A DNA stretch of 64,000 bases, taken from positions 3,551,501 through 3,615,500 of the forward strand of contig JAURUC010000001.1 in the NCBI GenBank assembly GCA_030803735.1, given 5' to 3'. Numbering within the stretch: the first letter of the stretch is position 1; the number at the start of each line of letters is the position of its first letter. This DNA is from Actinopolyspora lacussalsi (GTDB taxonomy: Bacteria; Actinomycetota; Actinomycetes; Mycobacteriales; Pseudonocardiaceae). The notes below the pieces were generated by a model that was not told where the DNA came from, ran no database searches, and saw nothing but the letters and a program-made list of their open reading frames with translations. The position numbers were made by a program, and so were the translations under genes. Shown here one piece after another: positions 3,361-16,298 of the stretch.

Positions 3361-5325
3361 TCAGCCGGTACCGGGCTGCTCACCGGTCGCGATCGGGGCG
3401 CTCAGCCACTGCCGTGGCATCCCGAATGCGCTGACCAGCTCGACCGCGTGCGGACGCAGCCCCTTGCACAGCGCGTTGACGGCCTCGGTGATCGCCTTGG
3501 CCCGGCGCGGGCTGATCCGCTCGTGCTCCAGGAACCAGCCGCGATCGGCCTCGATGTCGGACAGCACGTACAGATCGCACAGCCGCTCCAACATCTCGGC
3601 GGCCGCCGGATCGGTGCAGCGTTCGATCCCGGCGACGAACGCCTCCAGCACGACGCGGTCGACGTGCACCCGCGCGGCGCGCAGCACGTGGTCCTGCGCG
3701 TCGTTGAACACCTCGAACGGGTCGGCGTCCCCGGACCCGGCACGGCGCAACCTGCGGGCCACCCCGTCCAGCACGTGCCGTTCCCGGTCCTCGAACAGCC
3801 GCAGCTGCCAGCCCCGGTCGAACAGCGCGTCCTCGTCGTCCCTGCCGGGTGAGGCGTCCACCAGGCGCTGGATCAACGAGCGGGCGGCGGTCCGCTCGAT
3901 CACGGTTCCCACGAACTGGTCGGCGACGTAGCGTGCCATCCCGAGCGTGCCGAGCTCGTCGAAGCTCTCGCGGTAGCCGGTCAGCAGTCCCTTGGCCACG
4001 AGTTGCAGCAGCACCGTGTTGTCACCCTCGAAGGTGGTGAACACGTCGGTGTCGGCCTTCAACCCGGCCAGCTGGTTCTCGGCCAGGTAGCCGGATCCGC
4101 CGCAGGCCTCGCGGCAGTCCTGGATGGTGCGGGTGGCGTGCCAGGTGGTCACCGCCTTGAGCCCGGCGGCGCGGGACTCCAGCTCCCGCTGGGCGCGTCC
4201 CTCGGGATCGTCCTCCGGGGAGGCCTGCCGCAGGTCGTGCAGCGTGGCGACCAGTTCCTCCTGCGCGAAGTGCAGCGCGAAGGAGGTGGCCAGCGCGGGA
4301 AGCAGCTTGCGCTGGTGTGCCAGGTAGTCCAGCACCGGTGTCTCGGCGCCGGTCCGGGGGTTGGTGAATTGCCGCCGGGTGTCGCCGTAGCGCAGTGCGA
4401 TCTCCAGCGCGAGCTTGGTCGCGGCCCCGGCGGTGCCCGCCACCGACACCCGCCCGGTGATCAGGGTGCCGAGCATGGTGAAGAACCGTTTGTTCACCCC
4501 CTCGATCGGGCTGCTGTAGGTGCCGTCCTCGGCCACGTCGCCGTAGCGGTTCAACAGTGCTTCCCGGGGCACTCTCACCCGGTCGAAGGAGATCCTGCCG
4601 TTGTCCACCCCGTTGAGACCGGCCTTGCGGCCGCAGTCCGAAATGGACACTCCGGGGAGCGGGTTTCCCGCCCCGTCGCGGATGGGAACCAGCAGGGCGT
4701 GCACCCCGTGGTTCTCCGTCTCGCCGTCGGAGGTGGGGGTGTGCAGCTGGGCGAAGACGGCCGCGGTGCGCCCGTCCCGCGCGGCGTTGCCGATGTAGTC
4801 CTTGCGCGCGGACTCGTCCGGGGTGTGCACCACGAACTCGGCCGTGGCCGGATCGTAGACGGCCGTGGTCCCGAGCTGCTGCACGTCGGAACCGTGGCCG
4901 GTCTCGGTCATCGCGAAACAACCCGGCTCCGAGAGGTCCATTATGGACCGCAGGTATTCCTCGTGGTGCCGTTCGGTGCCCAGCGCGGTGACCGCTCCAC
5001 CGAAAAGTCCCCATTGGACACCGGCTTTGACCATCAGCGAGAGGTTGCCCGCCAGCATCTCCATGGCGACCACCGAACCGCCGCGGTCGCCGGATCCGCC
5101 GTACTCGACGGGAAAACCGATCCGGACGATCTCGCTACCTGCCAACCGCCGCAGCTGTTCGAAGGTGTGCGCCCGGTGGGACTCGGTGTCCAGCCCGTCG
5201 CCGGTGGGCAGGGGTTCGTTCTCCAGGACGCCGCGCACCCGGTCCCGGACCTCGCCCCAGCGGCCGTCCAGTGACTCGCGCAGCTTCGCGGGATCGAACT
5301 TCACGGGGATACTCGGGGTCCGCAT
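3361..5325 (-). CDS. Acyl-CoA dehydrogenase/oxidase family protein
   Basis: This 654-residue flavoprotein is as long as acyl-CoA oxidases rather than the roughly 380-residue dehydrogenases. Domains in order are an N-terminal helical domain, a middle beta domain with CFAMTETGHGSDVQ (flavin and substrate contacts, about residue 135), a C-terminal flavin domain with RTIQDCREACGGSGY (about 405), and a further helical oxidase-type domain. The Glu in TTFEGDN is at the usual catalytic-base position. It would catalyse alpha,beta-dehydrogenation of fatty acyl-CoA in beta-oxidation, passing electrons to oxygen or to ETF. It stands alone, with no thiolase or hydratase neighbours. Confidence 0.85.
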   Translation of the reverse strand: MRTPSIPVKFDPAKLRESLDGRWGEVRDRVRGVLENEPLPTGDGLDTESHRAHTFEQLRRLAGSEIVRIGFPVEYGGSGDRGGSVVAMEMLAGNLSLMVKAGVQWGLFGGAVTALGTERHHEEYLRSIMDLSEPGCFAMTETGHGSDVQQLGTTAVYDPATAEFVVHTPDESARKDYIGNAARDGRTAAVFAQLHTPTSDGETENHGVHALLVPIRDGAGNPLPGVSISDCGRKAGLNGVDNGRISFDRVRVPREALLNRYGDVAEDGTYSSPIEGVNKRFFTMLGTLITGRVSVAGTAGAATKLALEIALRYGDTRRQFTNPRTGAETPVLDYLAHQRKLLPALATSFALHFAQEELVATLHDLRQASPEDDPEGRAQRELESRAAGLKAVTTWHATRTIQDCREACGGSGYLAENQLAGLKADTDVFTTFEGDNTVLLQLVAKGLLTGYRESFDELGTLGMARYVADQFVGTVIERTAARSLIQRLVDASPGRDDEDALFDRGWQLRLFEDRERHVLDGVARRLRRAGSGDADPFEVFNDAQDHVLRAARVHVDRVVLEAFVAGIERCTDPAAAEMLERLCDLYVLSDIEADRGWFLEHERISPRRAKAITEAVNALCKGLRPHAVELVSAFGMPRQWLSAPIATGEQPGTG

Positions 5326-5474
5326 ACGTCCTCCAGCTCATTCGACTACCGCCAGCTCGATTACCCCGTGACGGAGTTGTCGAACCAGTCTGGCGCTCCC
5401 CGGGGTTTCGGCGCGTGCCCACCCCGGCGGACGAGTGCCATCCGGCAGCCCCACAGCCACGCGCTCGTCCCGGA

Positions 5475-6215
5475 TCACCCGCCGCCCGAGCTCGTGCCGT
5501 CCTTCGGGTGCAGCGCGTCGATGCGCCGCAGCACATCGAGCTGGGCGGGGTTGTACAACTCCAGCAACGCCTGGACGACGACCGACTCCCTGGACGTCTC
5601 TTCCCGCCGCCTGGCTTTCGCCCACGGATCAAGCAGCGCGGGGTGGTTCTGGTAGTGCTGTCGGATCTCCGGGAAGTAGCGCTCGGCCAGCCGACTCCGA
5701 GTGTCCTCGCTCGCGTCCGCGGGCAGGGCGTCGAACTCTTTCTCAACCGGAGTGGGAGGTCGCGACAGCATCTCCCACAACGCCGCCATCGCCGAGTCGC
5801 CGAAGACCCGCGAATAGATCAGCAGCAGGGCCCGGTCGGCGTCCGAGCGCTCGGCAGCGACCTCGTCGAAGCCCGCGGGCAGGTCGGCCGGGGAACGATG
5901 CCGCAGGATCACGGCCAGCTCCTCCCGCATCCGCTGCTGCCGTTCGATGCTCGCCGCCAGCTCGTCATCCAGAGCGCGGAGCGACTGGTCCGTGTTCTCC
6001 TCCGATTCCTCCATCACAGCGATCTCGGAAAGCGGCACGCCCAGGTCGACGAGCCTGCGGATCCGCAGCAGTCGGACCAGGTGCCCGATGCGGTACCGCT
6101 TGTACCCGTTCGCCGCCCGTTCCGGCTCGTCCAGCAGTCCGACCTCGTGGTAGTGGCGGACGGTTTTCAGCGTCGTGCCCGCGAGTTCTGCCAACTGCCG
6201 CGTGCTCCAGGCCAC
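5475..6215 (-). CDS. MerR-family transcriptional regulator
   Basis: This 246-residue protein has a winged helix-turn-helix at residues 2-70 (STRQLAELAGTTLKTVRHYHEVGLL, then YKRYRIGHLVRL), the canonical MerR N-terminus. A coiled-coil dimerisation helix and a large helical C-terminal domain of the TipAS-like length class follow. The GTG at 6215 is the start because the MerR domain begins there; the longer frame to 6419 would put about 68 non-homologous residues first. It is divergent from the CPBP protease gene, with an inverted repeat between them. Control of that neighbour is therefore plausible, but is inference. Confidence 0.85.
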   Translation of the reverse strand: MAWSTRQLAELAGTTLKTVRHYHEVGLLDEPERAANGYKRYRIGHLVRLLRIRRLVDLGVPLSEIAVMEESEENTDQSLRALDDELAASIERQQRMREELAVILRHRSPADLPAGFDEVAAERSDADRALLLIYSRVFGDSAMAALWEMLSRPPTPVEKEFDALPADASEDTRSRLAERYFPEIRQHYQNHPALLDPWAKARRREETSRESVVVQALLELYNPAQLDVLRRIDALHPKDGTSSGGG

Positions 6216-6285
6216 CGGACCGCCTACCTCTCGTGCTCCTCGGCAACCGCTGTCCTCGACGGTGGGTCGTGTGCCCGAGGACACA

Positions 6286-7268: not shown

Positions 7269-7631
7269 ATGAGGGCTGCTGAGTTCGACGACAAATTCGA
7301 TCGCGGCGAGGAGATCACCTCGACGCTCGATCTCGCCAAGGCACAACGTCCCGGTGAGGAGCAGCGGCGCGTCAACGTCGATTTCCCCGCCTGGATGATC
7401 GCGGCGCTGGATCGTGAAGCCAGGAGGCTGGGTGTGACGCGTCAGTCCGTCATCAAGGTCTGGCTCGCCGACCGGCTGGAACACACACCACGCACGCTGC
7501 CTGAGCCCGCGAATCAGCGGGACTCGACGCCCTGCCGAAGCCCTGCCCGCCCAGAACCCTGTTCGAACTTGACGCTCGCACGAGGAAGTGCAGGCGTCAG
7601 CCCCTGCCGTAGTAGAGGATCTCGCAGTTGA
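7269..7631 (+). CDS. brnA: BrnA-family antitoxin (orphan)
   Basis: Residues 1-72 match BrnA/CopG antitoxins closely: MRAAEFDDKFDRGEEI, an acidic dimer arm, then RVNVDFPAWMIAALDREA and LGVTRQSVIKVWLADRLE, which form a ribbon-helix-helix DNA-binding domain. BrnA normally stops shortly after this point. Here the frame runs on for about 48 low-quality residues and overlaps the 3' end of the convergent RTX gene by 35 bp, suggesting a lost stop codon. The ATG at 7269 is the start because family homology begins there. BrnA represses its own operon and neutralises the BrnT RNase. The partner toxin is only a remnant here. Confidence 0.75.
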   Translation: MRAAEFDDKFDRGEEITSTLDLAKAQRPGEEQRRVNVDFPAWMIAALDREARRLGVTRQSVIKVWLADRLEHTPRTLPEPANQRDSTPCRSPARPEPCSNLTLARGSAGVSPCRSRGSRS

Positions 7632-8094
7632 CGACCTTGTCGTCGAGATCGGCGTTGTAGCGGTCGGTGCCGGGACCGCAGTCGACGACGTCCGCCTCGT
7701 CGTCGGAACCGAGCTCGTCGGACATCACGGTGTCGTCACCGGGACCGGCGTAGAGATAGTCACCACCCTGTCCACCGTGGAAGAAATCGTCACCGTTGCC
7801 ACCCCGGATGACGTCATTTCCGGAGTTGCCGAACAGGCTGTCGTCATCGGCCTCGCCGAAGATGACGTCGAAGCCGCCCCGGACCTTGATCACGTCCTGA
7901 CCGGGCGTGCCGTGCAGGCCATCCGGCCCTTCGGTCCCTTCCTGATGGTTCTCCTCGTCCGCCGCGGCGGTGAGCGTAGGCTGGGTCTGGGAAGGCGTCG
8001 CCGCGGCCAACGGCGCGCCTACCACCAGAGCAGCCGCGGCGATTCCGGTTCCCACCAGTCCGGTCAGGCCGGTTCTCGTACGCGTGGTACGCAC
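7597..8094 (-). CDS. Secreted calcium-binding RTX-repeat protein
   Basis: This 165-residue protein has a Tat/Sec-like signal: several Arg/Thr residues, then LTGLVGTGIAAAALVVG and the cleavage-like PLAAA (about residues 8-33). An acidic spacer is followed by several glycine-aspartate nonapeptide repeats (for example GGFDVIFGEADDD, GNSGNDVIRGG, GGQGGDYLYAG, GPGDDTV) forming a calcium-dependent beta-roll. It ends with two cysteines (DCGPGTD, NCEIL) common in these short actinomycete proteins. The GTG at 8094 is chosen because AGGAG precedes it by 9 bases and the signal peptide starts there. No RTX toxin or type I exporter is adjacent, so it is more likely an extracellular structural or binding protein. 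Confidence 0.8.
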   Translation of the reverse strand: MRTTRTRTGLTGLVGTGIAAAALVVGAPLAAATPSQTQPTLTAAADEENHQEGTEGPDGLHGTPGQDVIKVRGGFDVIFGEADDDSLFGNSGNDVIRGGNGDDFFHGGQGGDYLYAGPGDDTVMSDELGSDDEADVVDCGPGTDRYNADLDDKVVNCEILYYGRG

Positions 8095-8814
8095 AGCGGT
8101 TCGCTCCTTTCGCCGTGCGATCAGCCCTCCGTAGCCCCTGGGGCTGATCCCACGATTCGGTTTCCGTATGCCACTCCTGGTGACGTAGTACCCCACCGGA
8201 GGTTGAGTGTCGGATCCGGACGATTTGAAACCACAGTGCACTCCGTTCCCACGAGCGGCGGCCGCCCGGGACCGGCTCCCGCCTCCCTTCCGTAGTGACC
8301 ACGATCGATCGGACGGAGGCGGCGACTTTTTCTCGAACCGCCAATTCTTTATCAGGTTTTCCCCGCCAACAACCCTCCAAGGGAAAAATCATCCTCGGCC
8401 TCGCCTATGATCAACTTACTCCCGATCCGCGATCACTTCAATCACACGAAGGTGTAAGCATTCCGGGAAACAGCACACAAAACAACATTCCCTCAAACCG
8501 GAAACACGCCTCCCACCCAAGAGTGAGTTTTCTGGACAAAAAACACTGGATTCGATAAAGGATTTTCCAACGAACCGAAGCCACCAGCACACGTTCACCG
8601 GGCAATCGGACGGAACGACCGGACCTCACCCGATCGGACCGATTCGGGGATCGTCCGAGGGACGGAAACACCCGCGAAAAGGGGAGCTCCGACCACCGGA
8701 AGACGGAACCGCCCCTTGTTCTTCGAGGCTTCCTCGATGTCAGCGTTATCCGCACGGTGCGCCCAGTGGTCCGGGAGCGGTGTCCCAACTGCTCGTTGAA
8801 CCGGGCGACCACGC
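8095..8814. other. Intergenic stretch without a convincing gene; low-GC core
   Basis: No frame here has codon use, a ribosome site and length that together look like a gene. About 8320-8560 is clearly poorer in G+C than the surroundings, with runs such as tttttctcg, ggaaaaatcat and gacaaaaaacactgg. It lies at the left edge of the leuS-proximal island. That fits a border between resident and acquired DNA, although base composition alone does not prove it. Confidence 0.5.
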
Positions 8815-8853: not shown

Positions 8854-10728
8854 TCATGGCCGGTAGTCCTCCAGTCGGGCCGGGTCCCAGATTCGGTCCA
8901 CCAGGGCTCGAACCAGCTTGCTCCGCTCCTCGTGCTCGGCCTTGCCGAACCGGTCGTACGGCCGAAACGGCAGGCCGGACCGCTCCACGAAAGAGCTGAA
9001 CTGGGGCTGGTGCTGGTAGGCGGCGCTGGTCAGGCTCGCGGCGTAGAGGTTCTGCTTCGCGTAGTGCGGCGCCTTCTGCTCGAACGGCTTGTCCTGGTAG
9101 CTGCGGTTCACGTCGGCGGGCAGCAGCACCAGACCGGCGACATGGTCACGCCACAGGTCGAAATCCTCGCGGGTCGGACACTCGTCGGCGTAGCGCTCGT
9201 GGTGATCGGGCCAGATGTGCTCGATGTCCCACGGGTTACGCAACGTCCGGTCCACCAGTTCGTCGAAGCGATCGGGCTTACCGGCCTCCCGCTCGGTGTA
9301 GGCGGTCAGCCGGGCCAGCAGATGGTAGATGTAGCGCCTGCTGAACTGGTTCAGCCCGAGTCCCGCGATGCCGCGCCGATAACGGCTCGGACTCCCGTCG
9401 AACGAGACATCGTCCTCGTCCTGATCCAGCTTCGACCGCAGGGTGTCGATCAGATCCGGCAACGACATGCCGCGGATGTCGCGGCACAGCAACCACATGG
9501 CGTAGTTGACGCTCGAATAGCTGATCCGGATGTAGTTGGCGGCTCGGCGCATAATCCAGATATCGAGGTAGGTCGCGGTCGCCGCGAGCTTGCGGCGTAC
9601 GGTCTCGTCCTCGTCACCGACCCTGAGCGGCGCCAGCAGCACGGTGCTCTGCCAGGTGAACTCGTTGTGCGCGTTGTAGAAAACCGGTTCCAGCCCCGAG
9701 GTGTAGCCGCGCGAGGCCTCCAGGACCTTCCGGTACGCCCGCGCGAAGAACGGCACCTCGTTGGTCATCAGGGCGAGGTTGCGCCCCGCGTCGCCCACTC
9801 CGACGCGGCTGGTGTTGTCACGGACCCAGCGGTGGAACGTGGAACCGATCAGTTCCCAGTCACGGTCGAGGGCACCCGCACGACGCTCCCGGATCGACTC
9901 GGCGTACTTGGCACGGAGCCATGCCTTGACGAAGGTGGCGTCGCGTTCCGCGTCGGGGTCGGGCTCCCAGGAAGTCAGTTCCAGCAGAGTCCTCTTCCAA
10001 ATACGGTTCGCGTTCGCCCGCTCACCCGCGTCCTCCACCGCACCGAGCAGATACGCCTTCAGCATGTCCACCGGGCTCAACGGTTTGCCCCGGTCGTTCA
10101 TCGTCTCGAAGATCGAGTAAGCGTGCGCGTCGGTCTCGGTCGCGATCTCGATCAATCCGACATTGCCGATCAGCCAATAGATGAACGGCTCCAGCCCGTC
10201 GCCGAGTTCGTCCGCCGGATCGATCGACACGAGGTCGTTGTACCGAGCGACGATCGTCTTGATCGACTCGTCCTTGCCCTCGGCGTCGTACTCCGCACCG
10301 TCGAACAACGCCCGGAGCACCGGCACGCGCTCGGCGATATCGAGGTTGAACTTCGGCTCGCCGTAGTCGTCGGAGAAGATCAACGGCTCCACTGTGGAGG
10401 TCACCCTGAGCCCGCGCTCCCGCGCCACCCGGTACAGGTAAATCAGCAGCAACGTCAGGGAGGTGACCCGCTGCTGACCATCGACCAGGTAGCTCTTGTT
10501 GCCACGCCTGGTCACGATGATCGAACCGAGGAAGTAGTCGCCGTAATCACCGGCGTCCCTCGGTGTGTCGCCGGTGCGGTAGAACGTCGAGAACCTGTTC
10601 TGCAGGTCGGTGACCAGTTCTTCGATGTTCTCCCGGTCCCACTTGTACTCCCGCTGGTACTCGTCGATCGCGAAGGAACGGGACTGCAGCAGCTCCTTGA
10701 TCGTGCGGTAGTGCGGCGTGATGCTCAT
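8854..10728 (-). CDS. DUF262/DUF1524 protein, GmrSD-type defence nuclease
   Basis: This 624-residue protein has an N-terminal DUF262 (ParB/GmrS-like) domain with YQREYKW at 24-30 and the diagnostic DGQQR motif at 83-87. Its C-terminal DUF1524 His-Asn-His-type nuclease region carries IEHIWP (from residue 502), a His pair at 509-510 and VNRSY near 541. Characterised relatives (GmrSD and the related SspE/BrxU types) are NTP-dependent type IV restriction factors that cut modified phage DNA or nick DNA. AGGGGAG precedes the ATG by 4-5 bases. It lies directly downstream of the toxin-antitoxin array, on the same strand, which favours an anti-phage role. Its modification target cannot be read from sequence. 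Confidence 0.82.
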   Translation of the reverse strand: MSITPHYRTIKELLQSRSFAIDEYQREYKWDRENIEELVTDLQNRFSTFYRTGDTPRDAGDYGDYFLGSIIVTRRGNKSYLVDGQQRVTSLTLLLIYLYRVARERGLRVTSTVEPLIFSDDYGEPKFNLDIAERVPVLRALFDGAEYDAEGKDESIKTIVARYNDLVSIDPADELGDGLEPFIYWLIGNVGLIEIATETDAHAYSIFETMNDRGKPLSPVDMLKAYLLGAVEDAGERANANRIWKRTLLELTSWEPDPDAERDATFVKAWLRAKYAESIRERRAGALDRDWELIGSTFHRWVRDNTSRVGVGDAGRNLALMTNEVPFFARAYRKVLEASRGYTSGLEPVFYNAHNEFTWQSTVLLAPLRVGDEDETVRRKLAATATYLDIWIMRRAANYIRISYSSVNYAMWLLCRDIRGMSLPDLIDTLRSKLDQDEDDVSFDGSPSRYRRGIAGLGLNQFSRRYIYHLLARLTAYTEREAGKPDRFDELVDRTLRNPWDIEHIWPDHHERYADECPTREDFDLWRDHVAGLVLLPADVNRSYQDKPFEQKAPHYAKQNLYAASLTSAAYQHQPQFSSFVERSGLPFRPYDRFGKAEHEERSKLVRALVDRIWDPARLEDYRP

Positions 10729-10819: not shown

Positions 10820-10885
10820 TCACTTACGAGCAGCGCGCCGACAGATGTCCTTGCTCGCCCGCGGACGCGGCTGTTTTTCGCTCAT
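10820..10885 (-). pseudogene. Truncated MazF-like toxin (array unit 1)
   Basis: The overlapping ATGA after antitoxin copy 1 opens a frame identical to the intact toxins for seven codons (MSEKQPRP begins it). The array sequence then ends at 10863, and the frame continues into unrelated residues before a stop. All toxin-fold residues are absent, so unit 1 makes antitoxin without toxin. Confidence 0.75.
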
Positions 10886-11115
10886 TCGGACTCGTGCACG
10901 TCGGACACGGCCACATCGGTTTCGGCCAAAGCGTGTTGTTCGTCCCGGTATTCCCGCAGTTCCTCGTCGGACAAGCGCGCCAGCGCGGCGAAGGACTCGT
11001 GTTCGAAGGCCAGTCGAGCCACCGTCTCGTCCAGGCTCGCACCGCCGTAGTCGCGCTCGGCGATACGTGCGAGCGCGTCCCGATTGGCGGAGTCGATCCG
11101 CATACTCGTTTGCAT
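10882..11115 (-). CDS. MazE/RHH-type antitoxin, copy 1 (without intact toxin)
   Basis: This 77-residue protein starts MQTSMRIDSANRDAL. The MRIDSANRDALARIAERDYG part resembles actinobacterial antitoxins that pair with MazF. It has a short ribbon-helix DNA-binding N-terminus, a helical middle (SLDETVARLAFEHESF) and an acidic tail (EETDVAV/HESE-like) expected to wrap the toxin. It is identical to copies 2 and 3. The following toxin is truncated, so this copy would supply surplus antitoxin. Translation may begin at the first ATG, which sits at the expected transcription start, or at the internal ATG before RIDS. Confidence 0.8.
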   Translation of the reverse strand: MQTSMRIDSANRDALARIAERDYGGASLDETVARLAFEHESFAALARLSDEELREYRDEQHALAETDVAVSDVHESE

Positions 11116-11150
11116 ACCTCAAGCATACGCCGGTGGCGAAGCCGTGACCA
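11116..11150 (-). promoter_or_regulatory. Promoter of antitoxin copy 1, probably leaderless
   Basis: The minus strand reads TGGTCA (11150-11145), 17 bp, TATGCT (11127-11122), then 6 bp and the antitoxin ATG. This places the expected +1 at or next to the A of the start codon. Confidence 0.55.
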
Positions 11151-11202
11151 CCCGCAGTGCTCCGGCACGGTCACCCGTGCCCGCTCATCACCGACGAGCA
11201 CC

Positions 11203-11241
11203 CCGGGGCTTCGGCTCCCGCACGAGAAACCGAAGCCCCGG
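11203..11241 (-). terminator. Duplicated leuS terminator hairpin, unit 1
   Basis: CCGGGGCTTCGG and CCGAAGCCCCGG form a 12-bp perfect stem with a 15-nt loop. This is the same hairpin that follows the real leuS stop codon. The loop carries the one substitution specific to this copy (11227). Confidence 0.6.
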
Positions 11242-11285
11242 CGAGGACGCTGTGGCGGGCGAGCCCGTCACGACGGGAAACCCGC

Positions 11286-11590
11286 TCAGCCGACCACGTT
11301 GACCAGCCGCCCGGGCACCACGATCACCTTGCGCGGCTCACCACCGCCCAACAGCTCCACGACCCTGCTGTCGGCCAACGCGGCAGCGCGGATCTCGTCC
11401 TGCTCGGCCGAAGTCGACACGGTGATCCGGGAACGAACCTTGCCGTTGAACTGAATCGGGTACTCGACCGTGTCATCGACCAGGTACTCCTCGTCGGCCA
11501 CCGGGAACGGCCCGTGCACCAGGCTCCGCTCGTTCCCCAACCGCGACCACAATTCTTCCACCGGGTGCGGGGCCACCCCACGGAGCCGCT
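11286..11590 (-). pseudogene. leuS 3'-terminal fragment, unit 1
   Basis: It encodes the last roughly 90 residues of LeuS (from [10 protein letters not shown] to the VNVVG terminus) without start codon or catalytic domains. It is identical to native leuS over 266 bp except for one synonymous change at 11514. The first roughly 30 bp (11552-11581) are instead a diverged version of the same gene (PHPVEELW against native PHLAEELW). It follows the toxin stop codon directly. Confidence 0.9.
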
Positions 11591-11935
11591 CTACTGGTTG
11601 ATGTCGATGATTCCGCGGAGCACGAATTTGATCTTGTTGATCTCGTCGGGAGTCAGCCGCGCACGATGAGGTCGCCGCAGTCGTTGCTGGCTGATGGACT
11701 TCACGTGGTCGCACATGGCGAACGTGGGCTGATTGAGGCTACTCAGCTGTGGTTGGTACGGCAGTTCTCGATCCGCGGTGGTGCAGGGCACCACGATGGT
11801 CAGCCCGTTGGGCAACGCGCATTCGAACGAGGTGGAGACGATCACGGCGGGACGGAGCCCCGCCTGCTCGTGTCCGACCTGAGGATCGAAGTCGGTCCAC
11901 CACACCTGCCAAGGACGCGGCTGTTTTTCGCTCAT
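11591..11935 (-). CDS. MazF/PemK-like mRNA interferase toxin, unit 2
   Basis: This 114-residue protein starts at the ATG overlapping the antitoxin stop (ATGA), so translation is coupled. The fold shows in order: [20 protein letters not shown] (strand 1 with the G-x-E/G-x-RP motif), [19 protein letters not shown] (active-site Thr region), and [14 protein letters not shown] (the family's C-D-x-V-R/K-x-I-D segment), then a final helix. MazF toxins cleave single-stranded RNA at short sequence motifs and arrest translation. The longer frame to 12172 is the antitoxin region read out of frame and is not used. It is identical to the unit 3 toxin. Confidence 0.85.
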
Positions 11936-12165
11936 TCGGACTCGTGCACGTCGGACACGGCCACATCGGTTTCGGCCAAAGCGTGTTGTTCGTCCCGGTA
12001 TTCCCGCAGTTCCTCGTCGGACAAGCGCGCCAGCGCGGCGAAGGACTCGTGTTCGAAGGCCAGTCGAGCCACCGTCTCGTCCAGGCTCGCACCGCCGTAG
12101 TCGCGCTCGGCGATACGTGCGAGCGCGTCCCGATTGGCGGAGTCGATCCGCATACTCGTTTGCAT
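11932..12165 (-). CDS. MazE/RHH-type antitoxin, copy 2
   Basis: This 77-residue antitoxin is identical to copies 1 and 3 and overlaps its toxin by 4 bp (ATGA). That overlap enforces stoichiometric, antitoxin-first translation. The N-terminal DNA-binding part likely autoregulates the promoter immediately upstream. Its gene lies 121 bp downstream (minus strand) of the leuS fragment stop at 12336-12338, with a hairpin in between that should isolate it from read-through. Confidence 0.85.
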   Translation of the reverse strand: MQTSMRIDSANRDALARIAERDYGGASLDETVARLAFEHESFAALARLSDEELREYRDEQHALAETDVAVSDVHESE

Positions 12166-12200
12166 ACCTCAAGCATACGCCGGTGGCGAAGCCGTGACCA
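12166..12200 (-). promoter_or_regulatory. Promoter of antitoxin copy 2, probably leaderless
   Basis: TGGTCA (12200-12195), a 17-bp spacer and TATGCT (12177-12172), with the ATG 6 bp after the -10 box. The sequence is identical to the other two copies. Confidence 0.55.
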
Positions 12201-12252
12201 CCCGCAGTGCTCCGGCACGGTCACCCGTGCCCGCTCATCACCGACGAGCACC

Positions 12253-12291
12253 CCGGGGCTTCGGCTCCCGCACGAGGAACCGAAGCCCCGG
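12253..12291 (-). terminator. Duplicated leuS terminator hairpin, unit 2
   Basis: The same perfect 12-bp stem (CCGGGGCTTCGG/CCGAAGCCCCGG) lies 45 bp past the end of the leuS fragment. Confidence 0.6.
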
Positions 12292-12335
12292 CGAGGACGC
12301 TGTGGCGGGCGAGCCCGTCACGACGGGAAACCCGC

Positions 12336-12640
12336 TCAGCCGACCACGTTGACCAGCCGCCCGGGCACCACGATCACCTTGCGCGGCTCACCACCGCCCA
12401 ACAGCTCCACGACCCTGCTGTCGGCCAACGCGGCAGCGCGGATCTCGTCCTGCTCGGCCGAAGTCGACACGGTGATCCGGGAACGAACCTTGCCGTTGAA
12501 CTGAATCGGGTACTCGACCGTGTCATCGACCAGGTACTCCTCGTCGGCCACCGGGAACGGCCCGTGCACCAGGCTCCGCTCGTTCCCCAACCGCGACCAC
12601 AATTCTTCCACCGGGTGCGGGGCCACCCCACGGAGCCGCT
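12336..12640 (-). pseudogene. leuS 3'-terminal fragment, unit 2
   Basis: It is identical to the unit 1 fragment: about 90 C-terminal LeuS codons with native sequence plus a diverged first 30 bp at 12602-12631 next to the toxin stop. It has no start codon. It probably persists as a by-product of the amplification. Confidence 0.9.
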
Positions 12641-12985
12641 CTACTGGTTGATGTCGATGATTCCGCGGAGCACGAATTTGATCTTGTTGATCTCGTCGGG
12701 AGTCAGCCGCGCACGATGAGGTCGCCGCAGTCGTTGCTGGCTGATGGACTTCACGTGGTCGCACATGGCGAACGTGGGCTGATTGAGGCTACTCAGCTGT
12801 GGTTGGTACGGCAGTTCTCGATCCGCGGTGGTGCAGGGCACCACGATGGTCAGCCCGTTGGGCAACGCGCATTCGAACGAGGTGGAGACGATCACGGCGG
12901 GACGGAGCCCCGCCTGCTCGTGTCCGACCTGAGGATCGAAGTCGGTCCACCACACCTGCCAAGGACGCGGCTGTTTTTCGCTCAT
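12641..12985 (-). CDS. MazF/PemK-like mRNA interferase toxin, unit 3
   Basis: This 114-residue toxin is identical to the unit 2 copy over its whole length, with the same ATGA overlap with its antitoxin. Two identical intact toxins and three antitoxins give a 3:2 antitoxin excess in gene dosage. Recombination between the 1050-bp repeats could remove a whole unit without leaving an unbalanced toxin. Confidence 0.85.
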
Positions 12986-13215
12986 TCGGACTCGTGCACG
13001 TCGGACACGGCCACATCGGTTTCGGCCAAAGCGTGTTGTTCGTCCCGGTATTCCCGCAGTTCCTCGTCGGACAAGCGCGCCAGCGCGGCGAAGGACTCGT
13101 GTTCGAAGGCCAGTCGAGCCACCGTCTCGTCCAGGCTCGCACCGCCGTAGTCGCGCTCGGCGATACGTGCGAGCGCGTCCCGATTGGCGGAGTCGATCCG
13201 CATACTCGTTTGCAT
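12982..13215 (-). CDS. MazE/RHH-type antitoxin, copy 3 (leuS-proximal)
   Basis: This 77-residue antitoxin is the first gene after the real leuS, 170 bp beyond its stop codon. It is identical to copies 1 and 2. The arrangement leuS - hairpin - promoter - antitoxin - toxin is probably the original insertion layout from which the array was amplified. Confidence 0.85.
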   Translation of the reverse strand: MQTSMRIDSANRDALARIAERDYGGASLDETVARLAFEHESFAALARLSDEELREYRDEQHALAETDVAVSDVHESE

Positions 13216-13250
13216 ACCTCAAGCATACGCCGGTGGCGAAGCCGTGACCA
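13216..13250 (-). promoter_or_regulatory. Promoter of antitoxin copy 3, probably leaderless
   Basis: TGGTCA (13250-13245) matches TTGACA at 4 of 6 positions. A 17-bp spacer and TATGCT (13227-13222) follow, then 6 bp to ATG. Leaderless mRNAs are frequent in actinobacteria, so the lack of a spaced ribosome site is not evidence against the gene. Confidence 0.55.
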
Positions 13251-13302
13251 CCCGCAGTGCTCCGGCACGGTCACCCGTGCCCGCTCATCACCGACGAGCA
13301 CC

Positions 13303-13341
13303 CCGGGGCTTCGGCTCCCGCACGAGGAACCGAAGCCCCGG
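13303..13341 (-). terminator. leuS terminator hairpin
   Basis: A perfect 12-bp stem (CCGGGGCTTCGG/CCGAAGCCCCGG) with a 15-nt loop, starting 45 bp after the leuS stop on the minus strand. Confidence 0.65.
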
Positions 13342-13385
13342 CGAGGACGCTGTGGCGGGCGAGCCCGTCACGACGGGAAACCCGC

Positions 13386-16298
13386 TCAGCCGACCACGTT
13401 GACCAGCCGCCCGGGCACCACGATCACCTTGCGCGGCTCACCACCGCCCAACAGCTCCACGACCCTGCTGTCGGCCAACGCGGCAGCGCGGATCTCGTCC
13501 TGCTCGGCCGAAGTCGACACGGTGATCCGGGAACGAACCTTGCCGTTGAACTGAATCGGGTACTCGACCGTGTCATCGACCAGGTACTCCTCGTCGGCCA
13601 CCGGGAACGGCCCATGCACCAGGCTCCGCTCGTTCCCCAACCGCGACCACAGCTCCTCGGCCAGGTGCGGCGTCAACGGAGCCACCAGCAGCACCATCGG
13701 CTCCATCACCGCGCGCGGCGGACCGGCGGCACCCGAGTACGCCTTGGTCACCCGGTTGTTCAGCTCGATCAGCTTGGCCACCGCGGTGTTGAACTGCAGC
13801 CCGTCGTAGTCCTCGCGCACCCCGGCGATGGTCTTGTGCAGCGCACGCAGCAGCTCGACGTCGGGTTCCTCGTCGGTGACCCGCACCTCGCCGGTCCGCT
13901 CGTCGACGACGTTGCGCCACAACCGCTGCAGGAAGCGGTGCGAACCGACCACGTCCTTGGTCGCCCACGGCCGCGAGGCGTCCAACGGCCCCATGGACAT
14001 CTCGTAGAGCCGCAGCGTGTCCACGCCGTAGGCGTCGGCCATCTCCTCGGGCGAGACCGAGTTCTTGAGGCTCTTGCCCATCTTGCCGTACTCGCGGTTG
14101 ACCTCCTCGCCGTTGTAGAAGTACTTGCCGTCCTGCTCGACGACCTCCTCGGCGGGCACGTAGACACCGCGCGAGTCGGTGTAGGCGTAGGCCTGGATGT
14201 AGCCCTGGTTGTACAGCCTGCGGTACGGCTCCTCGGCCGAGACGTGCCCCAGGTCGTAGAGCACCTTCTGCCAGAACCGCGCGTACAGCAGGTGCAGCAC
14301 CGCGTGCTCCACACCGCCGACGTAGAGATCCAGCCCGCCCGGATCGTTCGCGCCGTGCCGGTCGGGGCGCGGCCCCATCCAGTACCGCTCGTTCTCCGGA
14401 TCGACGAACCGCTCGTCGTTGTCGGGATCGATGTAGCGCAGCTGGTACCAGCAGGACCCCGCCCACTGCGGCATCACGTTGGTGTCGCGGTGGTAGTGCT
14501 TGAGCCCGTCGCCGAGATCCAGTTCCACCTCGGCCCAGTCGGACGCCTTGGACAGCGGCGGTTCGGGTTGGCTGTCCGCGTCCTCGGAGTCGTAGGTGCG
14601 CGGGGAGTAATCGGCCACCTCGGGCAGCTCCACCGGCAGCTGGTCCTCCGGCAGGCCCCTCGGGTTGCCGTCCTCGTCGTAGACGATCGGGAACGGCTCG
14701 CCCCAGTAGCGCTGCCGCGCGAACAGCCAGTCGCGCAGCTTGTACTGCACGCTGCCGCTGCCGTGACCGTGCTGCTCCATCCAGGAGACGACCTTGGTCT
14801 TGGCTTCCTCGACCGAGAGGCCGTTCAGGGTCAGCCCCGTGGCCTCCGAGGCGGAGTTGATCGCGGGTCCGTCACCGGTGTAGGCCTCGCCCTCGAAGTC
14901 GGCCGGGGGTTCGACGGTGCGCACGATGGGCAGTCCGAACTCGGAGGCGAACTCCCAGTCCCGCTGGTCCTGCGCGGGAACCGCCATGATCGCGCCGGTT
15001 CCGTAGGCCAGCAGCACGTAGTCGGCGGCGAACACCGGAACGAGCTCGCCGTTGACCGGGTTGACCGCGCGCAGCCCGGTGAAGACCCCGGTCTTGTCCT
15101 TGTTCTCCTGCCGGTCCAGCTCGGACTTCGTCGCGGCGAACCGGCGGTACTCCGCCACCGCCTCGGCGGGGCCCGAGTAGCCGCCGGTCCAGCGTTGATC
15201 GGTGTCCGCGGGCCACTCGCCGAACTTCTCGGGGGCAGCGAGGATCTCGTCGACCAGCGGGTGCTCCGGGGCGAGCACCATGTAGGTGGCGCCGAACAGG
15301 GTGTCCGGCCTGGTGGTGAACACCTCGATCGTCTCGTCACGACCCTCCAGCGCGAAGTGCACCTCCGCGCCCCGGGAGCGGCCGATCCAGTTGCGCTGCA
15401 TGGTCTTGACCTTGTCCGGCCACTCCAGGCGGTCCAGGTCGTCGACGAGCCGGTCGGCGTAGGCGGTGATCCGCATCATCCACTGCTTGAGGTTGCGCCG
15501 GAACACCGGGAAGTTGCCGCGTTCGCTGAGTCCGTCCGCGGTGACCTCCTCGTTGGCGACCACGGTCCCCAGGCCGGGACACCAGTTCACCGGGGCCTCG
15601 GAGAGGTAGGCCAGCCGGTAGGAGTCGATGATCTCGCGCTGCCGATCGCGCCCCAGTTCCTCCCACGGGGTGCCGTCCGGCGTGGTCCGCTCACCGGAGG
15701 CGAACTCCGCTTCGAGCTCGCTGATCGGGCGGGCACGCCCCCTGCCCTGGTCGGCCTCGGTGTCGTACCAGGCGTGGAAGATCTGCAGGAAGATCCACTG
15801 CGTCCACTTGTAGAACTCGATGTCGGTGGTGGCGACACGGCGCCGCTCGTCGTGACCGAGGCCGAGCCTGCGGATCTGCGTGAGGTAGCGCTCGATGTTG
15901 TTCTCGGTCGTGGTCCGCGGGTGGGTGCCGGTCTGCACCGCGTACTGCTCGGCGGGCAGCCCGAAGGCGTCGAATCCCATCGTGTGCAGCACGTTGCGCC
16001 CCAGCATCCGGTGGTAGCGGGCGTAGACGTCACTGCCGATGAACCCGAGCGGGTGCCCCACGTGCAGGCCGGAACCCGAGGGGTAGGGGAACATGTCCTG
16101 CACGAACAGCTTCTCGGATGCGGCGTCCTGCCCACGCAACGGTCCCACCGGGTTCGCGGCGTGGTAGCTGCCGAGCTCCTCCCAGCGCCGCTGCCAGTCC
16201 CGCTCGATGTCGCCCGCGATGCCCGCGGTGTACCGGAAGGGGGGCGTGTCGTCGCCCGCACCGTCCGTGCCCTGTGAGTTCCGTTCCGCGCCACTCAT
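13386..16298 (-). CDS. leuS: Leucyl-tRNA synthetase
   Basis: This 970-residue class I synthetase charges tRNA-Leu with leucine in the cytoplasm. The HIGH-type motif is [12 protein letters not shown] (residues 71-82) and the KMSKS-type loop is [11 protein letters not shown] (about 732-742). Between them lies the CP1 editing domain that removes misactivated Ile/Met/norvaline. The C-terminal tRNA-binding domain follows and ends VNVVG. Length is normal for actinobacteria. ATG 16298 has AAGGAAA upstream. The 5' leader carries an attenuator-like structure, and the 3' end is the core of the downstream tandem array. The native copy has a distinguishing A at 13614. Confidence 0.97.

Follow-up and report, generated by a model that had tools for sequence, protein, structure and literature searches.

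How did an antitoxin-toxin pair come to be multiplied in tandem behind leuS, the gene for leucyl-tRNA synthetase? The question is raised by a stretch of 64,000 nucleotides (nt) of Actinopolyspora lacussalsi (GenBank contig JAURUC010000001.1, positions 3,551,501 to 3,615,500), referred to here as the window, which belongs to an Actinopolyspora genome of a single contig of 5,028,440 bases. In this window, an antitoxin gene and a PemK/MazF toxin gene alternate with copies of the leuS 3′ end. The pair probably inserts as a stand-alone cassette that duplicates a long stretch of its target, a mode of insertion reported for restriction-modification genes, and a tandem amplification of the RecA type would then have followed at leuS. 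The evidence for this comes from two relatives, in which the same cassette stands behind other genes and is flanked each time by direct repeats of the gene 3′ end. These flanking repeats were missed in the preliminary description of the window.

Offset comparison confirmed the 1050-base-pair (bp) unit of the preliminary description. The tandem identity with this period spans 10863..12601, with its partner reaching to 13651, which corresponds to 2.66 units with two substitutions in total, at 11227 and 12564 (partner 13614). A chance origin of such a near-identical 1050-bp repeat is far beyond what can be expected. Tandem Repeats Finder was silent on the array because its maximum period is 500. 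The left edge (10862/10863) is sharp, and the right edge (12601/12602) is gradual, fading into 35-40 nt that are still leuS-like. The parts of the array, together with leuS and the gmrSD flank, lie on the minus strand. Copy 3 (12963..13651) is partial and runs into native leuS, copy 2 occupies 11913..12962, and copy 1, the leftmost (10863..11912), has its toxin start cut at the 10862/10863 junction. In minus-strand order, the array reads leuS, hairpin, antitoxin, toxin, leuS fragment, hairpin, antitoxin, toxin, leuS fragment, hairpin, antitoxin, eight toxin codons and gmrSD.

Translations and matches to Pfam family PF02452 also bore out the gene content given earlier, i.e., three identical antitoxin genes (copy 3, 12982..13215; copy 2, 11932..12165; copy 1, 10882..11115, not followed by an intact toxin), two intact PemK/MazF toxin genes (12641..12985 and 11591..11935) and one toxin cut after eight codons. 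The truncated toxin start lies in 10820..10885, where MSEKQPRP is followed by a tail of 13 unrelated residues. The leuS end had been named as the source of the repeat homology, and rightly so: intact leuS was identified by Pfam at 13386..16298, and the two 266-nt fragments of its 3′ end (12336..12601 and 11286..11551, the second also supported by translation) each differ from it at 1 of 266 bases. Each toxin end is linked to the adjoining leuS fragment by a joint (12602..12640 and 11552-11590) that is leuS-like but imperfect, with differing codons. Since only two private substitutions distinguish the copies, the array is either young or freshly homogenised. It should be noted that its copy number rests on the assembly.

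The species names of the compared genomes were inferred as A. biskrensis (G001), A. erythraea (G003), A. mzabensis (G004), A. alba (G007) and Halosaccharopolyspora lacisalsi (G013); G061 is a conspecific genome whose name was inferred as A. lacussalsi subsp. righensis. The nearest intact toxins are found in G001 (80% identical), beside glpD, and in G013 (75%), beside a DUF1295 gene. At both places the gene 3′ end, including the stop codon, recurs on the far side of the antitoxin-toxin pair. The glpD repeat has 141 nt that are 92% identical (L032, 5976-6116 and 6746-6886) and encloses an insert of 629 bp, and the DUF1295-gene repeat has 171 nt that are 99% identical (L033, 6169-6339 and 6995-7165) and encloses 655 bp. 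The insert starts 2 bases past the stop codon in G013, ~20 past it in G001 and past the hairpin at leuS, and the gene ends are whole. Given that G001 has the hairpin behind leuS too, the native leuS stretch reaches to at least 13304; together with a pre-antitoxin motif from ~13231, this gives a leuS repeat of ~348-420 bp and a cassette of 630-702 bp. The cassette sizes thus agree among the three genes (629, 655 and ~630-702 bp), and the inserts are almost wholly occupied by the two genes, with no room for a transposase or integrase. The DUF1295 target gene of H. lacisalsi is apparently split over two reading frames (L033, 5545-6337).

To put these repeats into perspective, 16 distinct loci were tallied, 15 from relatives and that of the window, with L049 and L115 representing one genome. 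A repeat was counted if it was direct, at least 100 nt long, at least 85% identical and lay across the pair. All 3 loci whose toxin is intact and at least 74% identical to that of the window have flanking gene-end repeats, compared with 0 of 13 more distant or toxin-broken loci, including the toxin-broken G246 and G003 and the toxin-less G005. As background, three other such repeat places within 5 kb were found in 462 kb of fetched sequence, i.e., a tandem small-gene pair (L027), an RTX gene end that is present twice (L046) and one in L118, which corresponds to a chance of ~0.5% per locus. The repeat in L046 (contig C11 of G061, 2745-2956 and 4491-4702) is that of the 3′ end of the RTX-like gene found at 7597-8241 of the window, with 212 nt that are 95% identical and 1746 bp apart; it is a further gene-end duplication close to the leuS locus. 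The direct repeats in L118 (722-1139, G356) are 167-285 nt long and lie away from the toxin.

As far as the available passages of the sources go, restriction-modification genes insert with long, variable target duplications on the order of 100 bp, and a pair that lies between direct repeats can be multiplied in tandem, apparently through unequal crossing-over (Nobusato 2000 and Furuta 2010, cited in PMC3031569 and PMC3874152; PMC3031569, PMC3874152). Common to those passages and our loci are a small addiction-type pair, the lack of a known mobile element and long, variable direct target repeats; here, however, the pair is a MazF-type toxin-antitoxin pair, and all three repeats consist of a gene 3′ end that includes the stop codon. 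The multiplied units of the leuS array are likewise in the same orientation and joined at the repeat, in what is here a natural toxin-antitoxin array. The earlier study of tandem multiplication was reportedly laboratory work on a restriction-modification pair. Judging by these passages, insertion with long target duplication and subsequent tandem multiplication have so far been described for restriction-modification genes, whereas here they would concern a toxin-antitoxin pair.

Applied to leuS, an antitoxin-toxin cassette of ~630-700 bp, without transposase or integrase, would have inserted just behind the gene and left a duplicate leuS 3′ end of ~350-420 bp on its far side. Unequal exchange of the RecA type between the two direct copies would have multiplied the unit, and a deletion would have removed most of the last toxin and joined the remnant to the gmrSD flank. 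Each unit would form an operon of antitoxin and toxin, with the copied leuS hairpin at its end. Because each unit gained or lost consists of one antitoxin and one toxin, and the outer antitoxin is toxin-less, such an array would always hold n toxins and n+1 antitoxins. If it contracted to n = 0, what remained would be an intact leuS followed by a single antitoxin, as in G061 and G007; this equality follows from the anatomy of the array and does not imply that those species passed through one.

The leuS locus of the relatives bears on the age of the array. The preliminary description had suggested looking for the unit beside leuS in related genomes and had taken its complete absence there as a refutation, which applies by half: the antitoxin is found there in 4 of 10 Actinopolyspora genomes (the window's own, G061, G007 and G004; 3 of the 9 others), with no toxin match at leuS in G061, G007 or G004, each of which has one antitoxin there. 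In the conspecific G061, the locus is single-copy and lacks the toxin, and its cut-toxin junction to gmrSD is also that of the window and of G007; G004 ends otherwise, and G008 contains leuS and gmrSD with the antitoxin absent. The shared junction thus predates the split of these lineages, and the array itself may be younger than the junction, or old and kept uniform. When leuS end, toxin and antitoxin were used as a joint query against 390 genomes of the family, the genome of the window was the sole match across the toxin-leuS joint among the matches listed. The toxin was found in 14 of these 390 genomes at E 1e-20 and in 1 of 397 genomes of the order, the window's own, at E 1e-35. Among listed proteins, P0051, from a cluster whose longest contig has 297,216 bases, is a toxin 96% identical to that of the window.

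At glpD, the site is occupied by the pair or its remains in G001, G003 and G005, and is without the cassette in the window genome, G002, G004, G006, G007, G008 and G061; in G004, glpD and the downstream region are 99 bp apart. G005 has lost the toxin, but 14 nt of the glpD repeat still adjoin the same cassette end; the duplication there is therefore old and has decayed. Across its 58 listed residues, the G005 antitoxin is identical to the A. halophila one. Loss of the toxin with the antitoxin left open is recurrent: G003 retains a short toxin start (L036, ~6175-6240), the toxin is absent in G005 (L035, 3449-3664), and that of G246 has a stop codon and a frame change (L120, ~5358-5551).

Antitoxins without a toxin have also departed from the family consensus. 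In an alignment of 36 of 50 listed proteins, with the consensus drawn from 31 rows, the orphan antitoxins are changed at 6/31, 6/31, 7/31, 6/31 and 3/21 conserved positions, compared with 0/30 in the window, 1/31 in G001 and 2/27 in G013, and the three leuS orphans are altered at the same six N-terminal columns. As support rather than proof, this suggests that the array was not derived from the orphan form. The ratio of nonsynonymous to synonymous divergence (dN/dS) is 0.28-0.46 among the three leuS orphans, 0.12-0.18 among toxin-linked antitoxins and 0.14-0.43 in mixed pairs, although synonymous divergence (dS) exceeds 0.55 in every pair involving G001 or G013 and the sites are too few to lean on these ratios.

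Of the other explanations, plain tandem duplication survives best, although we consider it unlikely. The cassette would have arrived otherwise, a chance duplication with breaks behind the toxin and inside leuS would have made the first repeat, and exchange would have added a unit. This explains the window alone equally well. In addition, the joint is leuS-like on its toxin side, a score equalled by 22 of 20000 random genomic 40-mers and, among shuffles, by 2 of 20000, as for a break at a patch of similarity. Several points weigh against insertion with target duplication. No single-copy, toxin-bearing leuS allele was found among the genomes searched, and no native sequence was recognisable behind the last leuS copy; therefore, insertion with duplication and plain tandem duplication are indistinguishable at leuS itself. 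Within leuS, the last 175 nt are distinct (window and G061 are 91-93% alike, G061 and G007 97%), and part of the array may accordingly have come from another strain, which also fits a toxin-bearing allele recombined into an orphan locus. A local import read from low antitoxin identity was dropped, since G061 and G007 show an intergenic dip of about the same depth between them (63-74%). The close intact loci are three only, the cut-offs of the repeat criterion were chosen after the loci had been seen, and the 31 rows behind the antitoxin consensus include G001 and G013 and themselves average 1.2 changes, with a maximum of 7. The sequence that follows the far copy in G001 does resemble the natural glpD flank found in G002 and G005, which speaks for insertion, but over 10 nt only. 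Of the two G001 copies, the one inside glpD is closest to G005 (95.1%) and the far one to G002 (93.5%), their mutual identity being 92.2%, which leaves room for import of one of them. The repeat is no longer seen at the same glpD site in G003 and G005. None of 41 genomes offered an empty site for G013, with in-gene matches of ~66-74% and none helpful behind the gene. The cassette ends differ between G001 and G013, inverted repeats were not seen at them by eye, and no enzyme is indicated. Tandem duplication, however, leaves unexplained the single cassettes between gene-end repeats at glpD and the DUF1295 gene.

An adaptive copy-number device, in which RecA alters the unit number and so tunes toxin dosage, had been put forward in the preliminary description and appears improbable. 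The 1050-bp direct repeats, which have 2 substitutions between them, offer RecA a good substrate, and the layout of n toxins and n+1 antitoxins tolerates change. Copy-number change by RecA would be a natural consequence of such repeats, but a role in setting dosage finds no support: no copy-number variants were seen, the conspecific genome and two other species with a leuS-linked antitoxin have no toxin match there, the orphan antitoxins of the genus are off the consensus, and with only two substitutions the array is young or recently homogenised. Retention of the cassette would most simply be explained by addiction, a selfish property, rather than by dosage control.

A wrong unit number introduced by assembly is more improbable still. 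Copy 2 carries no difference of its own, as such an error would allow, but the genome is one contig of 5.03 Mb, and copies 1 and 3 each have a private substitution and different unique flanks, which secures at least one full antitoxin-toxin-leuS′ unit and a further antitoxin. Antitoxin cluster P0001 also has three members on one 44,727-base contig, the independence of which is uncertain. Least probable of all is a site-specific integrative element with attachment sites at gene 3′ ends, which it would restore, since, although the insert starts just past the gene ends in G013, G001 and at leuS and the genes stay whole, the three targets are unrelated, the repeat lengths differ, the cassette ends are not conserved and 629-702 bp are too small for an integrase.

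Other origins were considered and rejected. A transposon with terminal inverted repeats was set aside because inspection of the cassette ends by eye showed no such repeats in G001 or G013, and insertion sequences known for long target duplications (IS1549, IS1634) were dropped on the same ground. For a phage origin, no relative was confirmed among viral contigs; for a plasmid origin, all 244 of 244 plasmid matches were below 60% identity, the best being 45.9%.

The window toxin matched PF02452 (PemK_toxin) with 68.5 bits against a cut-off of 23.1, and its residues 7-108 align with MazF/PemK structures of the PDB, e.g., 5ck9 and 1ub4 (E ~3e-15). Its partner, the antitoxin of 77 amino acids, matched no Pfam or NCBIfam family above cut-off: there was no NCBIfam match, and Pfam gave only DUF1127 (E 0.039, below its cut-off). 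Both intact toxin genes overlap the upstream antitoxin stop by ATGA. Antitoxin and toxin matches are adjacent in 12 of 15 loci of relatives, with the toxin broken in 2 of these 12. The G+C content of the cassette is 61-66%, compared with 67.5-69.7% in its surroundings.

A terminator and a promoter had also been proposed within the unit. The hairpin behind leuS (13304..13345; per-unit copies at ~12254-12295 and ~11204-11245) is strong (-40.2 kcal/mol, z -4.5), has a similar sequence behind leuS in G001 and is a probable terminator; it lacks a U run, however, and a simple terminator scan gave 1 site against 1.8 expected. The promoter was not confirmed by a sigma-70-type scan (0 sites), whose reach does not extend to other promoter types. 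GTATGC occurs three times at 11-12 bp spacing across the antitoxin start (13195-13250) and may represent an operator; the orphan relatives differ there. To the left, the array is flanked by a GmrSD-type modification-dependent restriction gene (8854..10728; PF03235, PF07510). The stretch from leuS to the RTX-like gene, in which this gene lies, varies across the genus and resembles a small insertion hot spot.

Among known systems, the MaOC1-linked ParE/ParD-like module of Microcystis aeruginosa comes close, as it lies between two identical 152-bp direct repeats, the first 14 bp past a gene stop codon (PMC7935541). Like the present cassette, this type II pair lies behind a gene and has a direct repeat on either side, but it is ParE/ParD-like, its repeats are intergenic with an inverted repeat rather than a duplicated gene end, and the available passages do not mention an array. 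In Escherichia coli, the ccdO157 islet, a type II pair that stands alone in the chromosome between folA and apaH, is decaying in many strains and resembles our case as a decaying solo pair between core genes. We know of no gene-end repeats or array associated with ccdO157, nor, to our knowledge, has a natural toxin-antitoxin array like that at leuS been described. Decay of ccdO157 is mentioned in PMC2654758, in the passages available. The part covered of the open-access literature on toxin-antitoxin arrays and gene-end repeats showed no case that looked similar except PMC7935541, which is a weak negative.

If insertion and amplification took place as proposed, the leuS array would be the first natural insert-then-multiply cycle of a toxin-antitoxin pair known to us, and leuS would be one target among several for this cassette. 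The family shows a rare set of stages, in which the cassette is single and intact, amplified, toxin-less or lost. More tentatively, some chromosomal toxin-antitoxin pairs may be mobile on their own, with no transposase to carry them, inserting behind core genes with a gene-end duplication of 140-420 bp that keeps the gene whole, with the repeats allowing multiplication and the n and n+1 geometry making it survivable. A cassette found at three genes with gene-end repeats, together with the amplified state and the toxin-less remnants of sister species, makes directly testable one route by which solo chromosomal toxin-antitoxin pairs may spread in the absence of a carrier.

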